Shown: positions 1-38,416 of the stretch, one piece after another
How the letters are laid out: each line of letters opens with the position of its first letter
How positions within the stretch are numbered: position 1 is the first letter of the stretch
Assembly (NCBI GenBank): GCA_025201375.1
Contig: JAIWZP010000028.1
Location: forward strand, 248,001 to 312,000
Direction of reading: 5' to 3'
DNA length: 64,000 nucleotides
Source of the DNA: Gongronella butleri
Taxonomy: Eukaryota; Mucoromycota; Mucoromycetes; Mucorales; Cunninghamellaceae
Program-made: the position numbers and the translations under genes
Notes under the pieces: generated by a model
What the model saw: only the letters and a program-made list of their open reading frames with translations
The model's database searches: none
Told to the model about the DNA's origin: nothing

Positions 1-141
1 TATTAAATTTTCAAACAGTATTTGTGAGTTTATTTGTCGAATAAAAAAGAATATAGAAATTTGCATAAAAACCACCGCGAGTAAAAAAAAAAAAAAAAAA
101 ATTGGCTGGGAACAAATCACTTGGTCAGGGCACGTCAGCAT
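1..141. other. Fanzor 3' flank (possible omega RNA/guide region), cut by window edge
   Basis: Only 141 bp lie downstream of the Fanzor stop. They are AT-rich and contain an 18 nt A-run at about 84-101. In TnpB/Fanzor systems the guide RNA usually overlaps the end of the gene and reads into the flanking element end, so the right end of any element and its guide would be here or beyond the window. No clear terminal repeat is visible. Confidence 0.3.
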
Positions 142-2499
142 CTACGCACCTCCTCGCGTGAAAACATCAGGCACAGGATTGTCGTTGAGGATGGCGTCTC
201 CAATGATGACCATATTTCTGCAGGCCATATTATCGCGATTGAACGTACGGTGGCAATTAGAGCATCTAAATAATTCATGTCACGCCGTTAAAAATCTATC
301 GTTCACTTTTTTGTTTTTGTCTTACATAAGCTTTCCCCAGACCTTGACTGTCGAGTTTTGCCACGGACGTGGGTTTTCAATCCGCTGAGGACCCATGCGC
401 GCTGTATTTGTCAGGCAAACAGGGCAAACCTTCGAGTTGCGGTATTCATCGATTAGATACACCTCAAACCCAAGTTTCTTCAGGGCGCTCCGCAGGCCAA
501 TGCCGCGAATCGGTTCATGAAACCGCATGTGCGGCGCGCTCCAGTTGCCCATGACGAGTACCGTGTTGTCATGAAACGCCGTACGGATGGCATTCCCAAG
601 GTCTTGATCGTGCTGTTGCCGCGCGTTATACTGATTAAATCGCAACTTGCGGTAAAGAGGCTGCGGCTGGCCTGTCTCACCGTTACCCAAAGTCGTGGCA
701 TTCGCGTACCAGTCGTGGAGAATCTCCCATTCCACTGCTTGCTGGCCCAGGTAATCCACATAGGCGGCCAGATTTTGAGTCTTGCTGCTGACAGTGCTCA
801 TTCGTTGCAGCGATTGAGAAACCCCGTGTGGGACATCTTCCCGCAACGTGCGATAATGTCGACGATGAAGTGCTTTGCGTCGGCTGCTGCTGGTGTAACG
901 GTGCGTTTGCCGGTTTTGAGGTGTGCTCGTGCTTGACATACAATACATGAGGTCGCGACGCCCACAGTCAACGTACACGAGGCTGCTCTGGGCGTCTTGG
1001 TGAATGGCCAAAAGACGTTGGCGGTCCACTTGCTCCAGCTCGTGAATGTATGTCGTCTCCCGAACCGATGGCACAAACGTGCGCCGGGGCCCCCCAGCAT
1101 TGGTAGCCCGAGTTGTTTTTAGGATGCTGACAGACACACCATCTGTGTAGATTGTGCCATTAAAGCAAAAGGGCCGCCAGTGTCCGTCGTGTGGCCATGC
1201 CGGAGGCTGCTGCTCATCTCCTTGGATTTGACCTTGCGACCACCAAACGTCATTGGCAAAATTGACCACCAGGCTCCAGATATCAAATTTGTAGTCTTGA
1301 GTGTTCTGGCGACCAGCTGGTCGAAGGTTCGCATTATTTTCAAAACGTAATCTCTGCACGCATTCACGGAGAATCATCGTGTCAATCTGAACCGCTGATG
1401 GCACCCATGATTTGCGCGTCGGGTACCAATTGTAAGATCGGTAGGACTGGAAGTCTACTTGTTCACCAGGCTCTTGTTGATGCCCCAGAGGGGCCACATG
1501 GGCAGCAGCATAACGACTCAATAGGTAAAAAGCGTTGACGTAGCGTTTTGGGGTATACTTGACGTCGACAAAGTAGTTGTCCGCGCGAATAAATTCATTT
1601 GGTTGCAATTGAATTTGCGCGAAACAAAGCCGCAAATCATTGACGAGCTCCTGAGCTTCTTGCAACATGGGGCCTCGAAGATGCGCTGGAACAGCGGCGA
1701 CAACGTTCTCGATTAGCTGTGGCACACCTTCGGCATTGATGGCACCAATTTGCGCCTTCAGCTGGCGTACATTTGTCGCGTAAGCGCCCTCATTGAACTC
1801 GGTGTTTTCTTCGTCTTCGTCGTCCTCGACACCAGGGTTCTCGGCATTTCGCTGTCGTCTGGCCCATTCGCGCACATTGCGCCGCTTGAATACAAAGTCC
1901 AGCGTGTACAGAACTCGCCTCTCGAAATTCTGCTGCACATTGTTCAGGTAGGCGGCGTTGACCTGATTGGTGGCGTAATGCGACGTCTGCTGCACACGGC
2001 CAAAAAATACCGAGCGCTGGAACTGCGAATGGCGGATGTACTCTTCCATGAGTGTTTGAAAACCGGGAACAAGGATGTACTGTTGGCCTGGAATGGTGCC
2101 ATCGGCAAGATAGGTAAACACGCACCGGCTGAAGTATTCGTCATTGACCAGTCTGGACATGTCAGGATGGGCTTGTTGCTGGCTATTGAGTAAAGTGTTG
2201 CCGTGGATGTCGAAGAGCGCCAGATAAATGTATTTTAAGGCTTGCAACTGATGTTTGATCAAGTAATTCACACGGATGACATAGTCCTCGAGATTGTTGC
2301 CAATGTTGCCAATATTCAATCCAACAGACGAAATGGACGTTTTCACGATAGTGTATCTGGTTTGGGGACCGCCTCCAGGTACGTCCAGCTCCGTGCGGCG
2401 AATGACATGGTGCTGCAGCGGGATTTCATCCATTCGAAAAAGACAATGCGTAGTAAAACGAGAAGAAAAAGAAAGAAAAAAAACAATCGACCGTAACAA
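142..2499 (-). CDS. Fanzor (eukaryotic TnpB-like RNA-guided nuclease), two exons
   Basis: A two-exon gene for a protein of about 765 aa, the size of larger Fanzor1-type proteins. Exon 1 runs 2499-326, a 60 nt intron (GTAAG...TTTAG) covers 325-266, and exon 2 runs 265-142 ending in TAG. The C-terminal half carries the TnpB/Fanzor signature in order: RuvC-I VYVDCGRRD (Asp about 511), VMGNWS, LIDEYRNSKVCPVC (Glu about 685, Cys 692 and 695), then after splicing ICSNCHRTFNRDNMACRNM (Cys 726 and 729, last catalytic Asp 736). Without splicing, exon 1 ends at KLM-stop and lacks half the zinc ribbon and the RuvC-III Asp. Known Fanzors cut DNA guided by an omega RNA encoded near the gene's 3' end; activity here is inferred. 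Met22 (MDEIPLQHH) is an alternative start, since the first 21 residues are hydrophobic and lie in a T-rich stretch. The N-terminal 500 residues are not recognisable by eye. Class (Fanzor1 rather than 2) is a guess from length. Confidence 0.88.
266..325 (-). other. 60 nt intron splitting the Fanzor zinc ribbon
   Basis: The donor reads AT|GTAAGACA and the acceptor TTATTTAG|ATGC. A TGACAT branch-like site lies about 15 nt before the acceptor. Joining the exons turns the codon AT/A into Ile and continues directly into CSNC, the second metal-binding pair. The intron contains in-frame stops, so retention would give a truncated, catalytically incomplete product. Confidence 0.85.
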
Positions 2500-3551
2500 C
2501 TATCACGGCCTTTGAAGAGGACAATCAAGCGCTGCAGATCCTTCATGCTTTGATTTGATTGTTCCATTGAATTTGATTTTCATTGTTCAATAACTGCCAC
2601 CGTTTTCAATCATCAGCTTGTATGATATTTTCCATCCCGCGGAACACTTTATTAGATGAATGTTAGAGCATTACATGTTTCTGTTGTGCTCGTCAATAAT
2701 AGCTGGACATCGCGCCTCTTGGAAAGCACAGTACATGACCGCTGCGGCACTGGAATCTAGACGGCGTCTTGGCGAGGAGGGGGGGTTTAAAAAAGATTGG
2801 TGGGAGCGGGGTTTGCCCCTCTTTGGCCCCCTATTTTTGGCTACGTCTGCACTCACGTCAGGAACACTTGCGGGAGCAGTCATATCATCACCACTTCCCG
2901 ATTTTCGTGTTGTTTTCATCGCCGGCATTGCATCACCTCCGCGCAAAATATGGAATCCTTTCTTTCTCTGATTTTTTTTAAATATTTTTTTTCTTTATAT
3001 TTCAAGGTTACAATACCCATTGACTTTTAAATTAACCACTCCAATCGGACAGAAGCACAGCATTGTAAAGAGCACGATCGAAATATAAAGGGGAGATATT
3101 AAGTACGTACTCGTCGTCGAGAATGCCATCGAACACTGTATCGCTAATATTACCGCTGTTACCCAGTGGTTCTTAGCGCAGCGATGGATGAAAGACTTCA
3201 GAAACCAGTTGGCTGCAGGGCCCAGCAAGGGCGATTCCATGTTTCGTGTGACGACGAGCAAATTTGATTTCAATCCACGCACAGCCCTAAGCGTCGCTCT
3301 ATTCGAAGTGACGTGTCACTTTGGGCATGTCGTTATCCAACACACCGCTGTTCACCACATCATAAAAGACAAAATGCAATTGATTTTCAAACGCGAGTGT
3401 TTTAAAGAAGAACAAATGGTTATGAAAGAATCAGACAATGACGGTTTAGCTTTTATCGAGCGACATTTCTGATTTTGGACCGCGACAACCTAAATGGGAC
3501 GGTGCGACATCTTTAATTTCAAATTGTGACAACAAAATGTGAATCCAGTGT
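2500..3551. other. Gene-free stretch upstream of Fanzor
   Basis: No supported ORF was found. The 2500-2600 segment is presumably the Fanzor promoter and 5' UTR on the minus strand. From 3250 to 3500 the sequence is interspersed with words such as GCGACAT that recur inside the neighbouring inverted-repeat element, suggesting that older mobile-element debris extends this way. Confidence 0.4.
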
Positions 3552-3736
3552 AGTACACCGTTTCCATGAATAAGTTGCGGCTTTCATGAAAATGGATGAC
3601 GGGCTTTGAGAAATCAAATGTCGCGGAAAAAAGTGCCGTTTCAGGGCTTAGATGTCGCAAATTTCGCGACATTTGGTTACTCAAAATACGACATTATTTC
3701 TTGCAAGGCGCAACTTATTCATGAAAACGGTGTACT
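3552..3736. mobile_element. 185 bp MITE-like element with 28 bp terminal inverted repeats
   Basis: The sequence at 3552-3579 (AGTACACCGTTTCCATGAAT then AAGTTGCG) is the inverted copy of 3709-3736, with one mismatch over 28 bp. Between them are further inverted words (AAATGTCGCGGAAA at about 3618 and its partner near 3655), so a single strand could fold into a long hairpin. There is no coding capacity. This structure is typical of a non-autonomous DNA transposon. No clean target-site duplication is visible in the immediate flanks. The right end abuts and interrupts the helix-turn-helix ORF that begins at 3872. Confidence 0.7.
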
Positions 3737-3872
3737 GAGCGATGCGAGTTGACACACCAAATTTCAATGCTGCAGCACGGCCGCTACAGCGAGTTTCCAG
3801 AATGTGTTTGACTACATCATGCTTTGTTTTGGCAGAGTATACTTTCTTGGGCCTGGGCTTGGGCTTGGTCAT
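3681..3872 (-). pseudogene. Truncated transposase-like helix-turn-helix ORF
   Basis: An ORF of about 63 aa starting MTKPKPRPKKVYSAKTKHDV. The segment KHDVVKHILETRCSGRAA and the following ALKFGVSTRIAQ resemble the N-terminal Psq/homeodomain-like DNA-binding domain of pogo- or Tc1-type transposases. This is a fold-level judgement by eye, not a match. After ...STRIAQ the reading frame runs straight into the terminal repeat of the 185 bp inverted-repeat element (YTVFMNK...) and stops. It is therefore read as a transposase or domesticated HTH gene fragment broken by that insertion. It lies on the same strand as the Fanzor gene and about 1.2 kb upstream of it. Confidence 0.45.
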
Positions 3873-4077
3873 TTTAATGCGATTTTTCCAACAAAAAAAA
3901 AAAAAAAGAAAAAAAAAGCACAAAAACTCCGGAAATGTACTCGATGCGTCCATTGTTAAGCGTGCAACATTTGAGCGCCTTGCGTCGTGCGATTTGCGCA
4001 GTACGACTGGAATATGCTCGATTGCACAAGATCTATGAATAAGATTTTTTGAAAACGAACAAAAACGAAGGGGCACA

Positions 4078-8979: not shown

Positions 8980-11220
8980 CCAAATCGGATCACTCAACAT
9001 TCATTTTTCATAAAATCAGGGCCAAACCAGAATAATAACGAGCCCTGAAGGCTAACTCGCCGAAAACTTGAAGCGATATCCCCAAACCACAAGCGCTTTA
9101 CCGCGTTTGCCCGCTGATTCATTTGAGGTGACTCACGCGTCGGAGCGCTCAGCTGTTGCCACAGTACGTGGCCAAATGGTGTTTATTTTACCCCCTTTAC
9201 GCCTATGAAACCGGCGCTTCATCAGAAACTTGCTCATCTGGTCCCAAATTTGGATCAGTCGATGGTAGACCCAATTCTTCAGTGTACTTAATTTTGTTCG
9301 CGAGTCGGATCACTCAGTCGCGAGAAATCTCGAAATTCGTGTTTGCTGGTGGAAACCCAGCGCCAAACAATATTTTACGTGTTTCTCTCAACGAGGCTGA
9401 TTATCTAGCTCCAAATTTAGGTCAGTGGATACTTGACCCAAAAAGTCGACGATGTCAAGTTTTTTCCCAATTCGGATCACTCAGTCCTGAGAACATGCAT
9501 TTTTCATAAAATCAGGGCCAAACCAGGGTCCAAAAGAGCCCTCAAGGCTAACTTGCCGAAAACTCGAAGCGATGTCCCCAAGACACAAGCGCTTTTACCG
9601 TGTTTGGCTGCTGATTCATTTGAGGTGGCTCTCGCGTCGGGGCTCTTAGCTGTTGCCGCTGTACGAGACCAAATGGTGGTGATCTTACCCCTTTACGCCC
9701 TTGAAACTGGTGCTTCGTCAGAAACTTGCTCATCAGCTCGCAAATTCGGATCAGTTGATGGTAGATCTAATTCTCCAACGGTGGTAATTTATTTCGCGAA
9801 TCGGATCACTCAGTCTCGAGAAATCTCGAGATTCGTGTTTGCTAATGAAAATCCAGGGCCAAACAATATTTTACGCGTTCCTCCCGATGAAGCTGACCAT
9901 CTGGGGCCAACTTTAGATCAGTGGATACTCGACCCAAAACTTTGAAGATTCCATGTTTTTCGAGAGATCGAATCACTCATTCCTGAGAAAATGCATTTTG
10001 CATAAATTCAGGGCCAAATCAGGTCCAATGGCCATGATATTTGTGATACAACGTTGTTCGTGACGTCTTCACAACGTTCGTTCGAATTTTTACGAACGTG
10101 GTTTGTCGCGAAGTCTTCACAATAACGTTCGTCCGATTTTTTTACGAAGGTTGTTCGCGAAGTCTTCACAGCGTTTGTTCGATTTTTTACGCACAAATGT
10201 TGTTCGCGAAGTCTTGTGTCTTGATAACAGCGTTCATTCAATTTTTTTTTTACAATCTTTGTTTACGAAGTCTTCACAACGTTCGTTTGTTTTTTTACTG
10301 TACAAATGTTGTTTGCGAAGTCTTCACACCGTTCATTCGAATTTTTACGCACAAATGTTGCTCGCGAAGTCTTGACAACAATGTTCGTTCGATGTTTTTT
10401 TTTACGCACAAACGTTGTTCACTAAGTCACACAACAGCGTTCGTTCGATTTTTTTTACGAACGTTGTTCGCGAAGTCTTTACCATTTTCATTCGATTTTT
10501 TACGAACTTTGTTCGTGAAGTCTTTACAACGTGCGTTCAATTTTTTACGAACGTTCGCGAATTCTTCACAGCGTTAGTTCGTTCGGTTTTTTTTACGAAC
10601 GTTCGCCAAAGCGTTCGTTAAACATATGGTTCGTCGAACGCTCGTTAAGAGGTCCTTGATAATTTTACAGTACCCCCTTTATGCCAATGAAATGGCGCTT
10701 CATTTTCAGAAACTTTCTCATCTGGTCCCAAATTTATATCGGTTGCCGGTAGACCCGATTCTCCAGTGGTGTTAATTTTTTTTTTCGCGAATCGGGTCTC
10801 TCGGTCTCGAGAAATCTCGAAATTCATGTTTGCTAGTGAAAACCCAGTGCCAAGTAACATTTCACGTGTTTCTCCCAATGAGCCTGACCGAATGACTCCA
10901 AATTTATACCAGTGGATGCTCGACTCAAAAATCCTACGGTATCAAGTTTTTTTCAGAGGTCGCATCACTCAGTCCTGAGAACGAGATTCGTGTTTGCTTG
11001 TGAAAACCCAGAGCCAAAATAATATTTTACGCGTTTCTCCCAGTGAGCTTAACCGCATGGCTCCAAATTTAAACCAGTGGTTAATCAACTCAAGGCGCGC
11101 AGATGTTGCCAATTTTTTTTTTTTTTTGCAAAACGGATTATTCAATCTTGAGAAATCTCGAAATTATCGGCTGCTAGTGAAAATCAGTGCCAAAATAATA
11201 TTTTACGCGTTTTTCGTCTT
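8980..11220 (+). repeat. Degenerate tandem array, unit about 490 bp
   Basis: Two nearly complete units (about 8985-9470 and 9470-9965) begin with TCGGATCACTCA and CATAAAATCAGGGCCAAACC. They share a series of landmarks: CGCTGATTCATTTGAGGTG-like, TTTACGCC, GCTTCATCAGAAACTTGCTC, GATGGTAGA, CGAGAAATCTCGA, CCAAACAATATTTTACG, CAGTGGATACT. Partial units recur at about 10660-10985, 10985-11100 and 11130-11215. Copies are clearly diverged, with no shared open frame and no RNA gene. The ORFs that cross it are accidental. A minisatellite at about 10065-10620 separates the whole and partial units. Confidence 0.8.
10065..10625 (+). repeat. Minisatellite, about 11 units of 45-58 bp
   Basis: The repeating core is CTTCACAACGTTCGTTCGAT, a T-run, ACGAACGTTGTTCGCGAAGT. 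Units start near 10065, 10115, 10163, 10212, 10270, 10320, 10369, 10425, 10475, 10520 and 10563. Each contains inverted words (TTCGTTCG / CGAACGTT / ACGAACGTTCG) so transcripts or single strands could fold repeatedly. It ends with a run of short AACG/TTCG palindromes near 10600-10640. It lies inside the 490 bp tandem array. Confidence 0.85.
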
Positions 11221-36155: not shown

Positions 36156-38416
36156 ATGTGTGATCTCTCTGACCCACGTATCACGCAGACATACCAGGAT
36201 ATCGTCGACGGCGCGGCCACCGACTGGTAAAAGACCGCCTTTTGCCTATCTTTTGCCCTTTTTGTTAATTTCTGCCCCCTTTTTTCTACTTTTTTTTTCT
36301 TTTGCCCAGGATGATACTTGGCTACAATGACTCTCGCGATGTGATCTCTCTTTATGAAAGCGGCAGCCAAGGACTCGGGTACAAAAACAAAAAAGAAAAA
36401 AGGGAAATTTACTCAAAAATTGGACGCGTCGCGCTCACTCGTGCCTTTTACAGCGAATTCCGCACCAAGCTTACGGAGGAAATCCTCTTTGGCTATGTGC
36501 GCGTCGAAGACCGATTCATTTTGATCTCTTACGTGCCCGATAAAGTCAGGTAAACGCGTCAAAACGATTGAAAATGGCCACCTTTTTCCGGGGAAACTCA
36601 CCTCCTTGGTTTTTTTTTTCTCTCCCCTTTTTTTTCCCCTCATTGATTTAGTGGTGTTCGACGAGGTAGGACGACGACGAATACACGAAAAAAAAAAAAA
36701 AAAAAACCAGGGGTCAATCAATGCGAAAAAAAAAAAAAAAAAAATAGAAAATGGGCGTTTTGTGTGAAATTTTGTTCACGATGACGGGTTTTTCATGCAT
36801 CTAAATGGGCGCTTTTTTTTCTCCTTTTTTTCAATTAGCACGTACGCTTGTTCATAGTCGGTCGGTGGCGGCACTGTTGCAAGTGCATCACGCGTCGCTG
36901 ACGGCATCGTCTTTGTCAGATTTGAGCGATTTGAACGTGCGCACACGCCTCAAGCTGGGCGAGAACCAGGTGCCGAACCGCTCACGTCCGCCATCGCTGT
37001 CGGAGCGCAAACGCAACTCGCTGCAGGCGAAGCGTCAATCGCTGCAACAGCAAGAAAACATCCCGTCGATGCCATCGTCGCCAGCTTCGTATGTCGACAC
37101 GTTTGAAGAAGCGCAGGAACACCTGACAATGAACGACCAAATGTCAGCCGACGAGCAGGAGCGCCTCGAACGCGTGCGTCTCGAACACCAGCGCATCGAG
37201 GACCAGAAACGCCAGGACGAGCTCGCGCGCCTCGAAGAACAGCGACGCGTCGACGAGGAGAACAAGAAACGCGCCGCCGACGAACAAAAGCGCATCGAGG
37301 AAGAAAAGAAACGCCGCGAGGATGAAGAACGCGCCGCTGCGGAGCAAAAGCGCATCGCGGACGAGCAAAGACGCGCCGCAGAGGAAGAAAAGCGCGTCGC
37401 ACTGGAGCAAAAGCGCGTCGCCGAGGAGAAAAAGCGCGTCGCCGACGAGCAAAAGCGCGCCGCGGAAGCCGAACGCGCTCGTCAGCAGCAAGAAGAAGCC
37501 GAACACGCTCGAAAGCAACAAGAAGAAGCTGACCGCGTCCGAAAGCAACAAGAAGAGGCCGATCGCGCGCAAAAGCAGCAAGAAGAAGCCGAGCGAGTGC
37601 GAAAGCAACAAGAAGAGGCCGAGCGACAGCGCCGTGAGCAAGAATTGGTCGAGCAGCGCCGTCTTCAGCAAGAAGCCGAGGCCAGAAAACGTGCAGATGA
37701 GGAAAAGAAGCGCGTCGCCGAGGAAAAGCGCCGTGCCGAGGAACAAAGCCGCCTAGAGGAAGAAAAGCGCGTCAAGGACCAAAAGCGCATCGAGCAGCTC
37801 AAGAAACAGGCCGAGGACGAGCAAAAGCGCAAGCTTCAGCAGCAAATGCGCCAGGCTGAAAAGACAAAAGACGTAAGAAAGCCATAAAAAAACCAATTGA
37901 TTCCTCCTTTGACGCACCATTTCTCTCCTCTTAGGTGCTCATTCAAGGCGTGGCCAACATTCAATCGCACCTCAGCCCGGTAAAAAAAAAAATACACGCT
38001 TCATTTCAAAAAGAAAGAGAAACTCAACGCGTTTTTTTATACTTTTTTGCTTTTTCGTGCATTTCTCTAGTTTTGGCATCGTCGCTTCTTCACGATTCGT
38101 GGCAAATCGCTGTCTCTTTATGCTGACCAACTTGTAAGTCACCCTTGGCATGCCGACGTGTAAAATAAAAAAAAACCAGAACTGACGCGCCGATTTCGTG
38201 CTCTTTTATTTCTTTTTTGTACAGGCTTCGCAACCATTGACGGTTGTGGATTTGACCGGCACGGTGGCCCTGCGCTGGGCCGACCCAGAGGTGGACGCGT
38301 TCTTGTCCAATGCGTTTGTGATTTGCAACAAGGATGGCTCGTCGTACCAGGTGTTCGCCGAGCGCCAGCAGGATGCTAGCACCATCTTTACTGCGCTTCA
38401 GACCGTCATCGGCTAA
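36156..38416 (+). CDS. ADF-H (coactosin/Abp1-like) - coiled coil - PH domain protein
   Basis: Eight exons joined in frame give about 550 aa. Residues 1 to about 130 form an ADF-homology domain of the coactosin/drebrin-like kind: MCDLSDPRITQTYQDIVDGA, DWMILGYNDSRDVISLYESG, TEEILFGYVRVEDRFILISY and VSGVRRARTLVHSRSVAALL. A Ser/Pro linker follows, then about 240 residues of K/E/R/Q/A-rich single-helix or coiled coil made of near-repeats (QQEEADRVRK, QQEEAERVRK, KRVAEEKKR). The C-terminus is a PH domain: VLIQGVANIQSHLSPFWHRR, FFTIRGKSLSLYADQL, QPLTVVDLTG and TIFTALQTVIG. One exon is only 14 nt (36652-36665) and is needed for the frame. It likely binds actin and membrane phosphoinositides at the cortex; this is inferred from domains. 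There are no SH3 domains as in Abp1. Confidence 0.83.

Follow-up and report, generated by a model that had tools for sequence, protein, structure and literature searches.

The window analysed here is a stretch of 64,000 nucleotides on contig C32 of Gongronella butleri (Mucorales, Cunninghamellaceae), whose searched genome comprises 33.0 Mb in 110 contigs. A first-pass annotation had placed an apparently intact Fanzor nuclease gene of a fungal genome at positions 142..2499, and the locus raises the question of whether this gene encodes a complete RNA-guided nuclease, what has kept its frame readable, and what kind of element it belongs to. Direct reading of the frame, the intron and the motifs, together with homology, confirmed the intact gene, and the fungal assignment is supported by the identity of the host. 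As far as can be judged from its sequence and that of its relatives, the gene is very probably a protein-coding, spliced Fanzor1, that is, the gene of a TnpB-type RNA-guided DNA endonuclease of a mobile element.

The gene lies in a minus-strand open frame that is free of stops from 2499 to 326 (Table 1). The absence of a stop in the first exon had been reported correctly, but the length given for it, 725 codons, takes an upstream TTG as the start, and the first ATG follows at 2433. The 60-nt intron and its junction (326/265) had been placed correctly (325-266), and the position and phase of the intron are kept in a paralogue of 46% amino-acid identity. The spliced product is 743 residues long and contains the complete D-E-D triad (D489, E663 and D714) and the zinc-ribbon cysteines 670, 673, 704 and 707; the RuvC aspartate, the glutamate, the four cysteines and the NRD aspartate are thus all found where they had been assigned after removal of the intron. 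The segment LIDEYRNSKVCPVC starts at residue 660. E663 is followed by YRNSKV and then by C670, so that its spacing from the zinc finger is the six residues described for the alternative RuvC-II glutamate of Fanzors (PMC10711439). RuvC-I of Fanzors is ‘near exclusively’ DPG in the motif description of the same paper (PMC10711439). The three readable G. butleri copies depart from this expectation with DCG, while DPG is found in a partial G. butleri copy (on contig C67) and in Coemansia proteins; since both the catalytic D and the G remain and DPG is typical rather than absolute, DCG is taken as a trait of the lineage. The window copy also appears to agree with the Fanzor1 motif D-X(125,275)-[TS]-[TS]-X-X-C4-X(5,50)-RD as given in PMC3627910, except at the first [TS]: the pair before the zinc ribbon is N666-S667 in the window copy (T666N) and T-S in the copies on contigs C2 and C43.

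Table 1. Features of the Fanzor1 locus and of the linked orphan gene. Positions are those of the window unless a contig is named.
Feature	Position	Strand	Remarks
Exon 1, Fanzor1 gene	326..2433	-	ATG 2433-2431; 702 codons + 2 nt; from ORF, splicing and homology
Intron, 60 nt, GTAAGA...TTTAG	266..325	-	Position kept in C2 (60 nt) and C43 (116 nt)
Exon 2: second half of zinc ribbon, RuvC-III, stop TAG	142..265	-	
TDG motif, residues 430-432, Fanzor1 WED domain	1138..1146	-	From alignment; motif as described in PMC10711439
RuvC-I VDCGRRD, residues 488-494	952..972	-	Catalytic D489; D-C-G replaces D-P-G
RuvC-II, alternative glutamate E663 in LIDEY, residues 660-664	442..456	-	
Zinc-ribbon cysteine pair 1, CPVC, residues 670-673	415..426	-	
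Zinc-ribbon cysteine pair 2, CSNC, residues 704-707	253..264	-	CSNNDC in the C2 copy
RuvC-III NRD, residues 712-714	232..240	-	Catalytic D714
5' flank shared with the C2 copy	2434..2705	.	255/270 aligned sites equal; homology stops at 2705
3' flank shared with the C2 copy	1..141	.	Sharing continues beyond the window to ~C32:247302; folds worse than shuffles
Orphan gene, 323 aa	C32:237688-238656		Outside the window, ~9.5 kb from Fanzor
Orphan gene, 323 aa, 97%	C2:478165-479133		
Orphan gene, 286 aa	C43:295850-296710		33% over the matched part, 295907-296560

By its profile matches to PpFz1, SpuFz1 and GtFz1 the window protein belongs to Fanzor1. A single-sequence search of the PDB returned PpFz1 (E 3.8e-40) and SpuFz1 (E 1.8e-22), with two other rows at chance level (E 0.95 and 2.4). 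The protein search, in which the best 8000 candidates from a collection clustered at 90% were scored, gave 12 hits; a profile built from exon 1, the C2 copy and ten of these (P0007 and P0011 were left out) matched PpFz1 at 2.7e-148, SpuFz1 at 1.3e-66 and GtFz1 at 6.4e-13, the rest of the nine PDB rows being noise. No TnpB, Cas12 or Fanzor2 chain is present among the nine rows, and a kinship with Fanzor2 or IS607 TnpB, judged solely by the PDB chains matched by the profile, is not indicated. The TDG motif and the D and G of RuvC-I are invariant in 12/12 aligned rows. The spliced window protein reaches 24.4 bits with the zinc-ribbon model PF07282, under the model's cut-off of 26.3, and 28.2 bits are obtained with neighbours in a six-frame search of the genome, which reads through the intron stops. 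An AlphaFold model of exon 1 alone is poor, with a mean pLDDT of 51 and a pTM of 0.53, and gives no help with the REC/WED/RuvC/TNB fold expected of a Fanzor1. The other 18 of the 20 PF07282 matches in the genome (for example L001, L003, L006 and L007) apparently belong to a second TnpB-like family, Fanzor2-like in character, with the motifs E.(Y/W)TS..C and RD.NAARNI, as judged by eye in six of eight loci, the other two having been read on the wrong strand.

The best sequence match to the window protein among solved structures is PpFz1 (PDB 9cf0-9cf3) from Parasitella parasitica, which is likewise a Mucorales fungus. The two proteins share TDG, GRRD, NWSAP and IDE(Y/F)R.S..CP.C, and they differ in RuvC-I, which is DPG in PpFz1 and DCG here. 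Two aligned parts are separated by about 110 residues in PpFz1 (chain 986-1096) and by about 13 in the window protein (query 581-594); this short stretch fits the place of the FRI insertion described for PpFz1 (PMC11423790). SpuFz1 of Spizellomyces punctatus (PDB 8gkh) is aligned from before TDG, through NRD, to residue 741/743 of the window protein. Hypothetical proteins of Coemansia, a genus outside the Mucorales, are 26-32% identical, have the same catalytic motifs and mostly carry PF26935, but have DPG in RuvC-I. If the window protein works as its characterised relatives do, it would bind an omega RNA derived from the element's 3' end and would cut double-stranded DNA beside a short TAM through a single RuvC site, and such guided cutting would help the element to persist or spread.

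The gene is a new Fanzor1 of the Mucorales, a lineage in which Fanzor1s have been described since 2013: elements from Mucor circinelloides, Rhizopus oryzae and Phycomyces were presented by Bao and Jurka (PMC3627910). With two more readable copies in the same genome, the view that such an intact gene is unusual is therefore not supported. Among the full texts searched, no publication names Gongronella together with Fanzor.

Searching the genome with exon 1 located a copy on C2 with 91% amino-acid identity, one on C43 matched as two pieces (54% and 37%), a partial locus on C67 and, on C82, a broken one. The copies on C2 and C43 read through and carry exon 2, making three readable copies with that of the window; the C43 copy is 46% identical to the window copy over 725 aligned residues. 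It is also the best match in the protein collection, as BC940DRAFT_306747 (P0001, G. butleri). This model ends exactly at the intron donor, at contig position ~299638, without exon 2, and therefore loses RuvC-III. None of the 12 hits of the protein search (best 8000 candidates, 90% clustering) is as near as the window copy's own protein or that of C2 would be, so the window gene seems to be unannotated in that collection.

The window copy and the C2 copy (C2:489510-491801, matching window 142-2433) lie at the right end of a block of 22-25 kb that is common to C32 (~225941-250705) and C2 (~470379-492071). The block is broken by insertions, and its left part is about 80% alike. A long inverted repeat at C32:~228098-228411, noted by eye, is missing at the same site in C2. 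The two blocks are unlikely to be allelic haplotigs, as the flanks on both sides fail to match within C32:218001-268000 and C2:460000-505000 (matches of at least 150 nt).

The Fanzor gene is more diverged than the block in which it lies. In the closely matching part of the block the non-coding DNA differs by 3.2% (359/11337) and the other gene by 2.1% (20/969), while the Fanzor coding sequence with its intron differs by 7.0% (159/2286), about twice the block level (Fisher p 1.5e-15). The excess is most pronounced at silent sites, with 0.17 changes per site in Fanzor against 0.046 in the neighbouring gene (p 1e-6) and 0.032 in non-coding DNA, a four- to six-fold difference. The 5' flank, with 15/270 sites different, is likewise above the block rate. 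Neither base composition nor the mix of transitions and transversions explains the excess. The simplest reading is that recombination replaced the Fanzor frame of one of the two copies with that of a more distant one; no donor is found among the copies recovered by the exon 1 search of the genome.

Compared with the C2 copy, the window copy has 86.5 synonymous differences over 500.7 sites (dS 0.196) and 68.5 non-synonymous differences over 1728.3 sites (dN 0.041), giving an omega of 0.207 with a bootstrap 95% interval of 0.148-0.283 (1000 draws). The Fanzor coding sequence and intron (2286 sites) contain two indels, both multiples of three. The non-coding block (11337 sites) contains 58, of which 47 are not a multiple of three and 34 are beside homopolymers. 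The block rate predicts 11.7 indels in Fanzor against the two observed (P 0.0007), and 4.8 when homopolymer-adjacent indels are left out (P 0.14), so that the deficit is significant solely if homopolymer sites count. The non-synonymous divergence is not lower than that of the non-coding DNA (0.040 against 0.032; 68.5/1728 against 359/11337; p 0.10); the low omega thus comes from many silent changes, and in part reflects an older history of the coding sequence. Nine antisense or otherwise off-frame readings of the Fanzor stretch have ratios of 0.92 to 4.93, save for one of 0.19 at the 3' edge. Window-only changes occur at 4/118 conserved columns (I603N, A613G, R649S and T666N), C2-only changes at 2 and changes in both copies at 25. 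When the gap-free amino-acid differences are polarised by C43, 18 fall on the window copy, 11 on the C2 copy and 32 are undecided. On the substitution and indel counts, the reading frame is one that has been guarded for most of its history.

The other long gene of the block codes for a cysteine-rich protein with two C-x2-C pairs, here called the orphan. A search of the genome found it in only two other places, C2 and C43 (3/3 candidates scored), each of which also holds a readable Fanzor copy. On C43 the orphan and the Fanzor gene are head to head with their start codons about 690 bases apart; on C32 and C2 they point towards one another. The linkages count as two independent ones and not three, because C32 and C2 represent one duplication. 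When the C43 locus was set against the C32 region by tblastx (minimum piece 25 residues), the two genes were recovered along with an abundant repeat and isolated short pieces of low identity. The DNA upstream of the orphan shows a weak T-rich match between C32 and C43, scoring 48 against 46 for the best of 200 shuffles. No trace of the orphan was found on C67 (1-20000) or C82 (23001-53000).

Between C32 and C2 the orphan has 10 synonymous changes over 219.5 sites and 10 non-synonymous changes over 749.5 sites; the non-synonymous changes are below the prediction from the block rate (p 0.001 and 0.003 in two tests), and no indel is seen where 5.0 are expected. The block was also screened for open frames of at least 70 codons, 103 in all, by a procedure that drops frames with a shifting gap and misses genes split by introns. 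In C2, 31/103 are free of stops and frame-shifting gaps, and among these only the orphan exceeds 160 codons; some short frames have low ratios based on few changes, such as C32:243419-243805 (129 codons, 4 against 2). The Fanzor frame is absent from the output, apparently owing to a 2-nt gap in its leader. By these comparisons the orphan is a constrained gene and, besides Fanzor, the one conserved long gene of the block.

Two protein searches, sensitive only to shared short exact words, returned no relatives of the orphan protein outside G. butleri. No domain was found in NCBIfam, PADLOC or PHROGs (E up to 10, 1 and 1, respectively) or in the PDB, and the two matches in Pfam are at chance level (best E 0.087). 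The predicted model has a pLDDT of 45 and a pTM of 0.30. The layout C-x2-C ... PH..G ... LC-x2-CR, noted by eye, presumably recalls treble-clef/HNH proteins, and the C-terminus, as we take it, a helix-turn-helix.

The borders of a mobile element are not apparent at the locus. No terminal inverted repeat or direct repeat at the block ends, and no terminal inverted repeat at the ends of the 3.4-kb shared unit, rises above shuffles, and no target-site duplication is seen by eye. There is no clear structured RNA at the 3' side, where the best of 39 windows in the flank has z -2.03 and the first 141 nt have z +2.1; the 3' flanks of C32, C43 and C67 are not more alike than shuffles, and Rfam has no match in 84355 bases. 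A Pfam scan of ten frames recognised no transposase. SpuFz1 differs from the window copy: it is described as flanked by 30-nt inverted repeats and accompanied by a 3' omega RNA and numerous ghost elements (PMC10432273), none of which was found here. Some Mucorales Fanzor1 elements, MCi-2 and MCi-5, are without recognisable terminal inverted repeats in the account of Bao and Jurka (PMC3627910); the elements in that account have target-site duplications and in part pieces of a transposase, whereas the window locus shows no such duplication and is linked to the orphan gene instead.

Two repeats were considered as parts of the element and rejected. The repeat TE-X (C32:232852-235026), a candidate for an element shared by five Fanzor1 loci, is abundant, with 41 matches from the best 40 of 1092 candidates; because it is abundant genome-wide, its matches at Fanzor1 loci are no sign of association. 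The second repeat (C32:247302 on) lies at the shared unit's 3' end and was a candidate for the end of ghost elements; it has 41 matches among the best 40 of 149 candidates. Ten of its loci other than those on C32 and C2 were inspected, and since their similarity continues past the border, it is probably part of another repeat. Elsewhere in the window, a short element with inverted ends (GTACACCGTTT.CATGAATAAGTTGC and the complement, by eye) occupies 3552-3736 and is adjoined by a minus-strand open frame (3681-4076) with no Pfam match. At 8996-10581 a 496-bp unit stands in tandem in about two copies, after which comes a 45-57-bp array; a tandem array at 37267-37622 has units of 21, 30, 42 and 63 bp, all multiples of three.

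The proposal that the copy is ‘recently active or under selection’ can now be divided. Its second part is supported, within the limits given above, by an omega of 0.21 and the lack of a frame-shifting indel relative to C2. Recent activity is not shown: no terminal inverted repeat was found at the unit and block ends, no target-site duplication is visible, the nearest copy is 7% different in coding sequence and intron, and the window copy has its four private substitutions.

Two other readings would leave the window product without nuclease activity or impaired. Were the intron retained, always or sometimes, translation would stop at the donor (KLM), and the product, without the third catalytic aspartate and half of the zinc ribbon, would be an RNA-binding protein that does not cut. 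The collection entry for the C43 copy (P0001), which ends precisely at the donor, agrees with such a product, but a model terminated at a donor is likely an annotation error; exon 2, with its cysteine pair and NRD, is kept in all three readable copies, and the alignment of the spliced protein to SpuFz1 extends through it to residue 741/743, so that intron retention appears very improbable. An early pseudogene, still readable but impaired in catalysis or RNA binding, with C2 or C43 as the working copy, is unlikely on balance, though to be taken seriously. The four substitutions are at positions invariant in the other rows, T666N in the [TS][TS] pair ahead of the zinc ribbon among them, the second cysteine knuckle is two residues shorter than in C2, and non-synonymous divergence equals non-coding divergence. 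The frame, however, has neither a stop nor a frame-shifting indel and has fewer indels than predicted (with the dependence on homopolymer sites given above), the C-x2-C knuckle is also present in C43, and four changes against two are too few to separate the copies.

The spliced Fanzor1 favoured here might also be read as a host gene that has ceased to belong to a transposable element and is retained, with its orphan neighbour, for a cellular function. Such domestication would suit the low copy number (three readable), the omega of 0.2, the lack of terminal inverted repeats and target-site duplications, and the constraint on the companion gene; it seems improbable, as the C32 and C2 copies lie in unrelated flanks among repeats, there are also one broken and one partial copy, and on C43 the gene stands in another order and orientation to its companion than on C32 and C2. 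We suggest, tentatively and as a rather unlikely proposal as it stands, that some Mucorales Fanzor1s travel as a two-gene module consisting of the nuclease and the cysteine-rich protein of 286-323 residues, possibly a mobilising, guide-processing or restraining factor, with the nuclease frame exchanged between copies of the module. Such an exchange would explain the several-fold silent-site excess over the surrounding block.

New here, and deserving attention, are an orphan gene in linkage with each of the three readable copies, and a Fanzor coding sequence that is over-diverged at silent sites relative to its surroundings. With the window gene, the set of Fanzor1s worth testing gains a compact, spliced Mucorales member that has the unusual residues DCG, N-S and C-x2-C. 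The position of its intron inside the zinc ribbon means that a gene model may truncate such a protein there, hiding an active-site residue. Several of the Fanzor1 elements described in PMC3627910 are without a transposase; if the orphan proves to be a partner, it would help to show what such elements rely on in addition to the nuclease.
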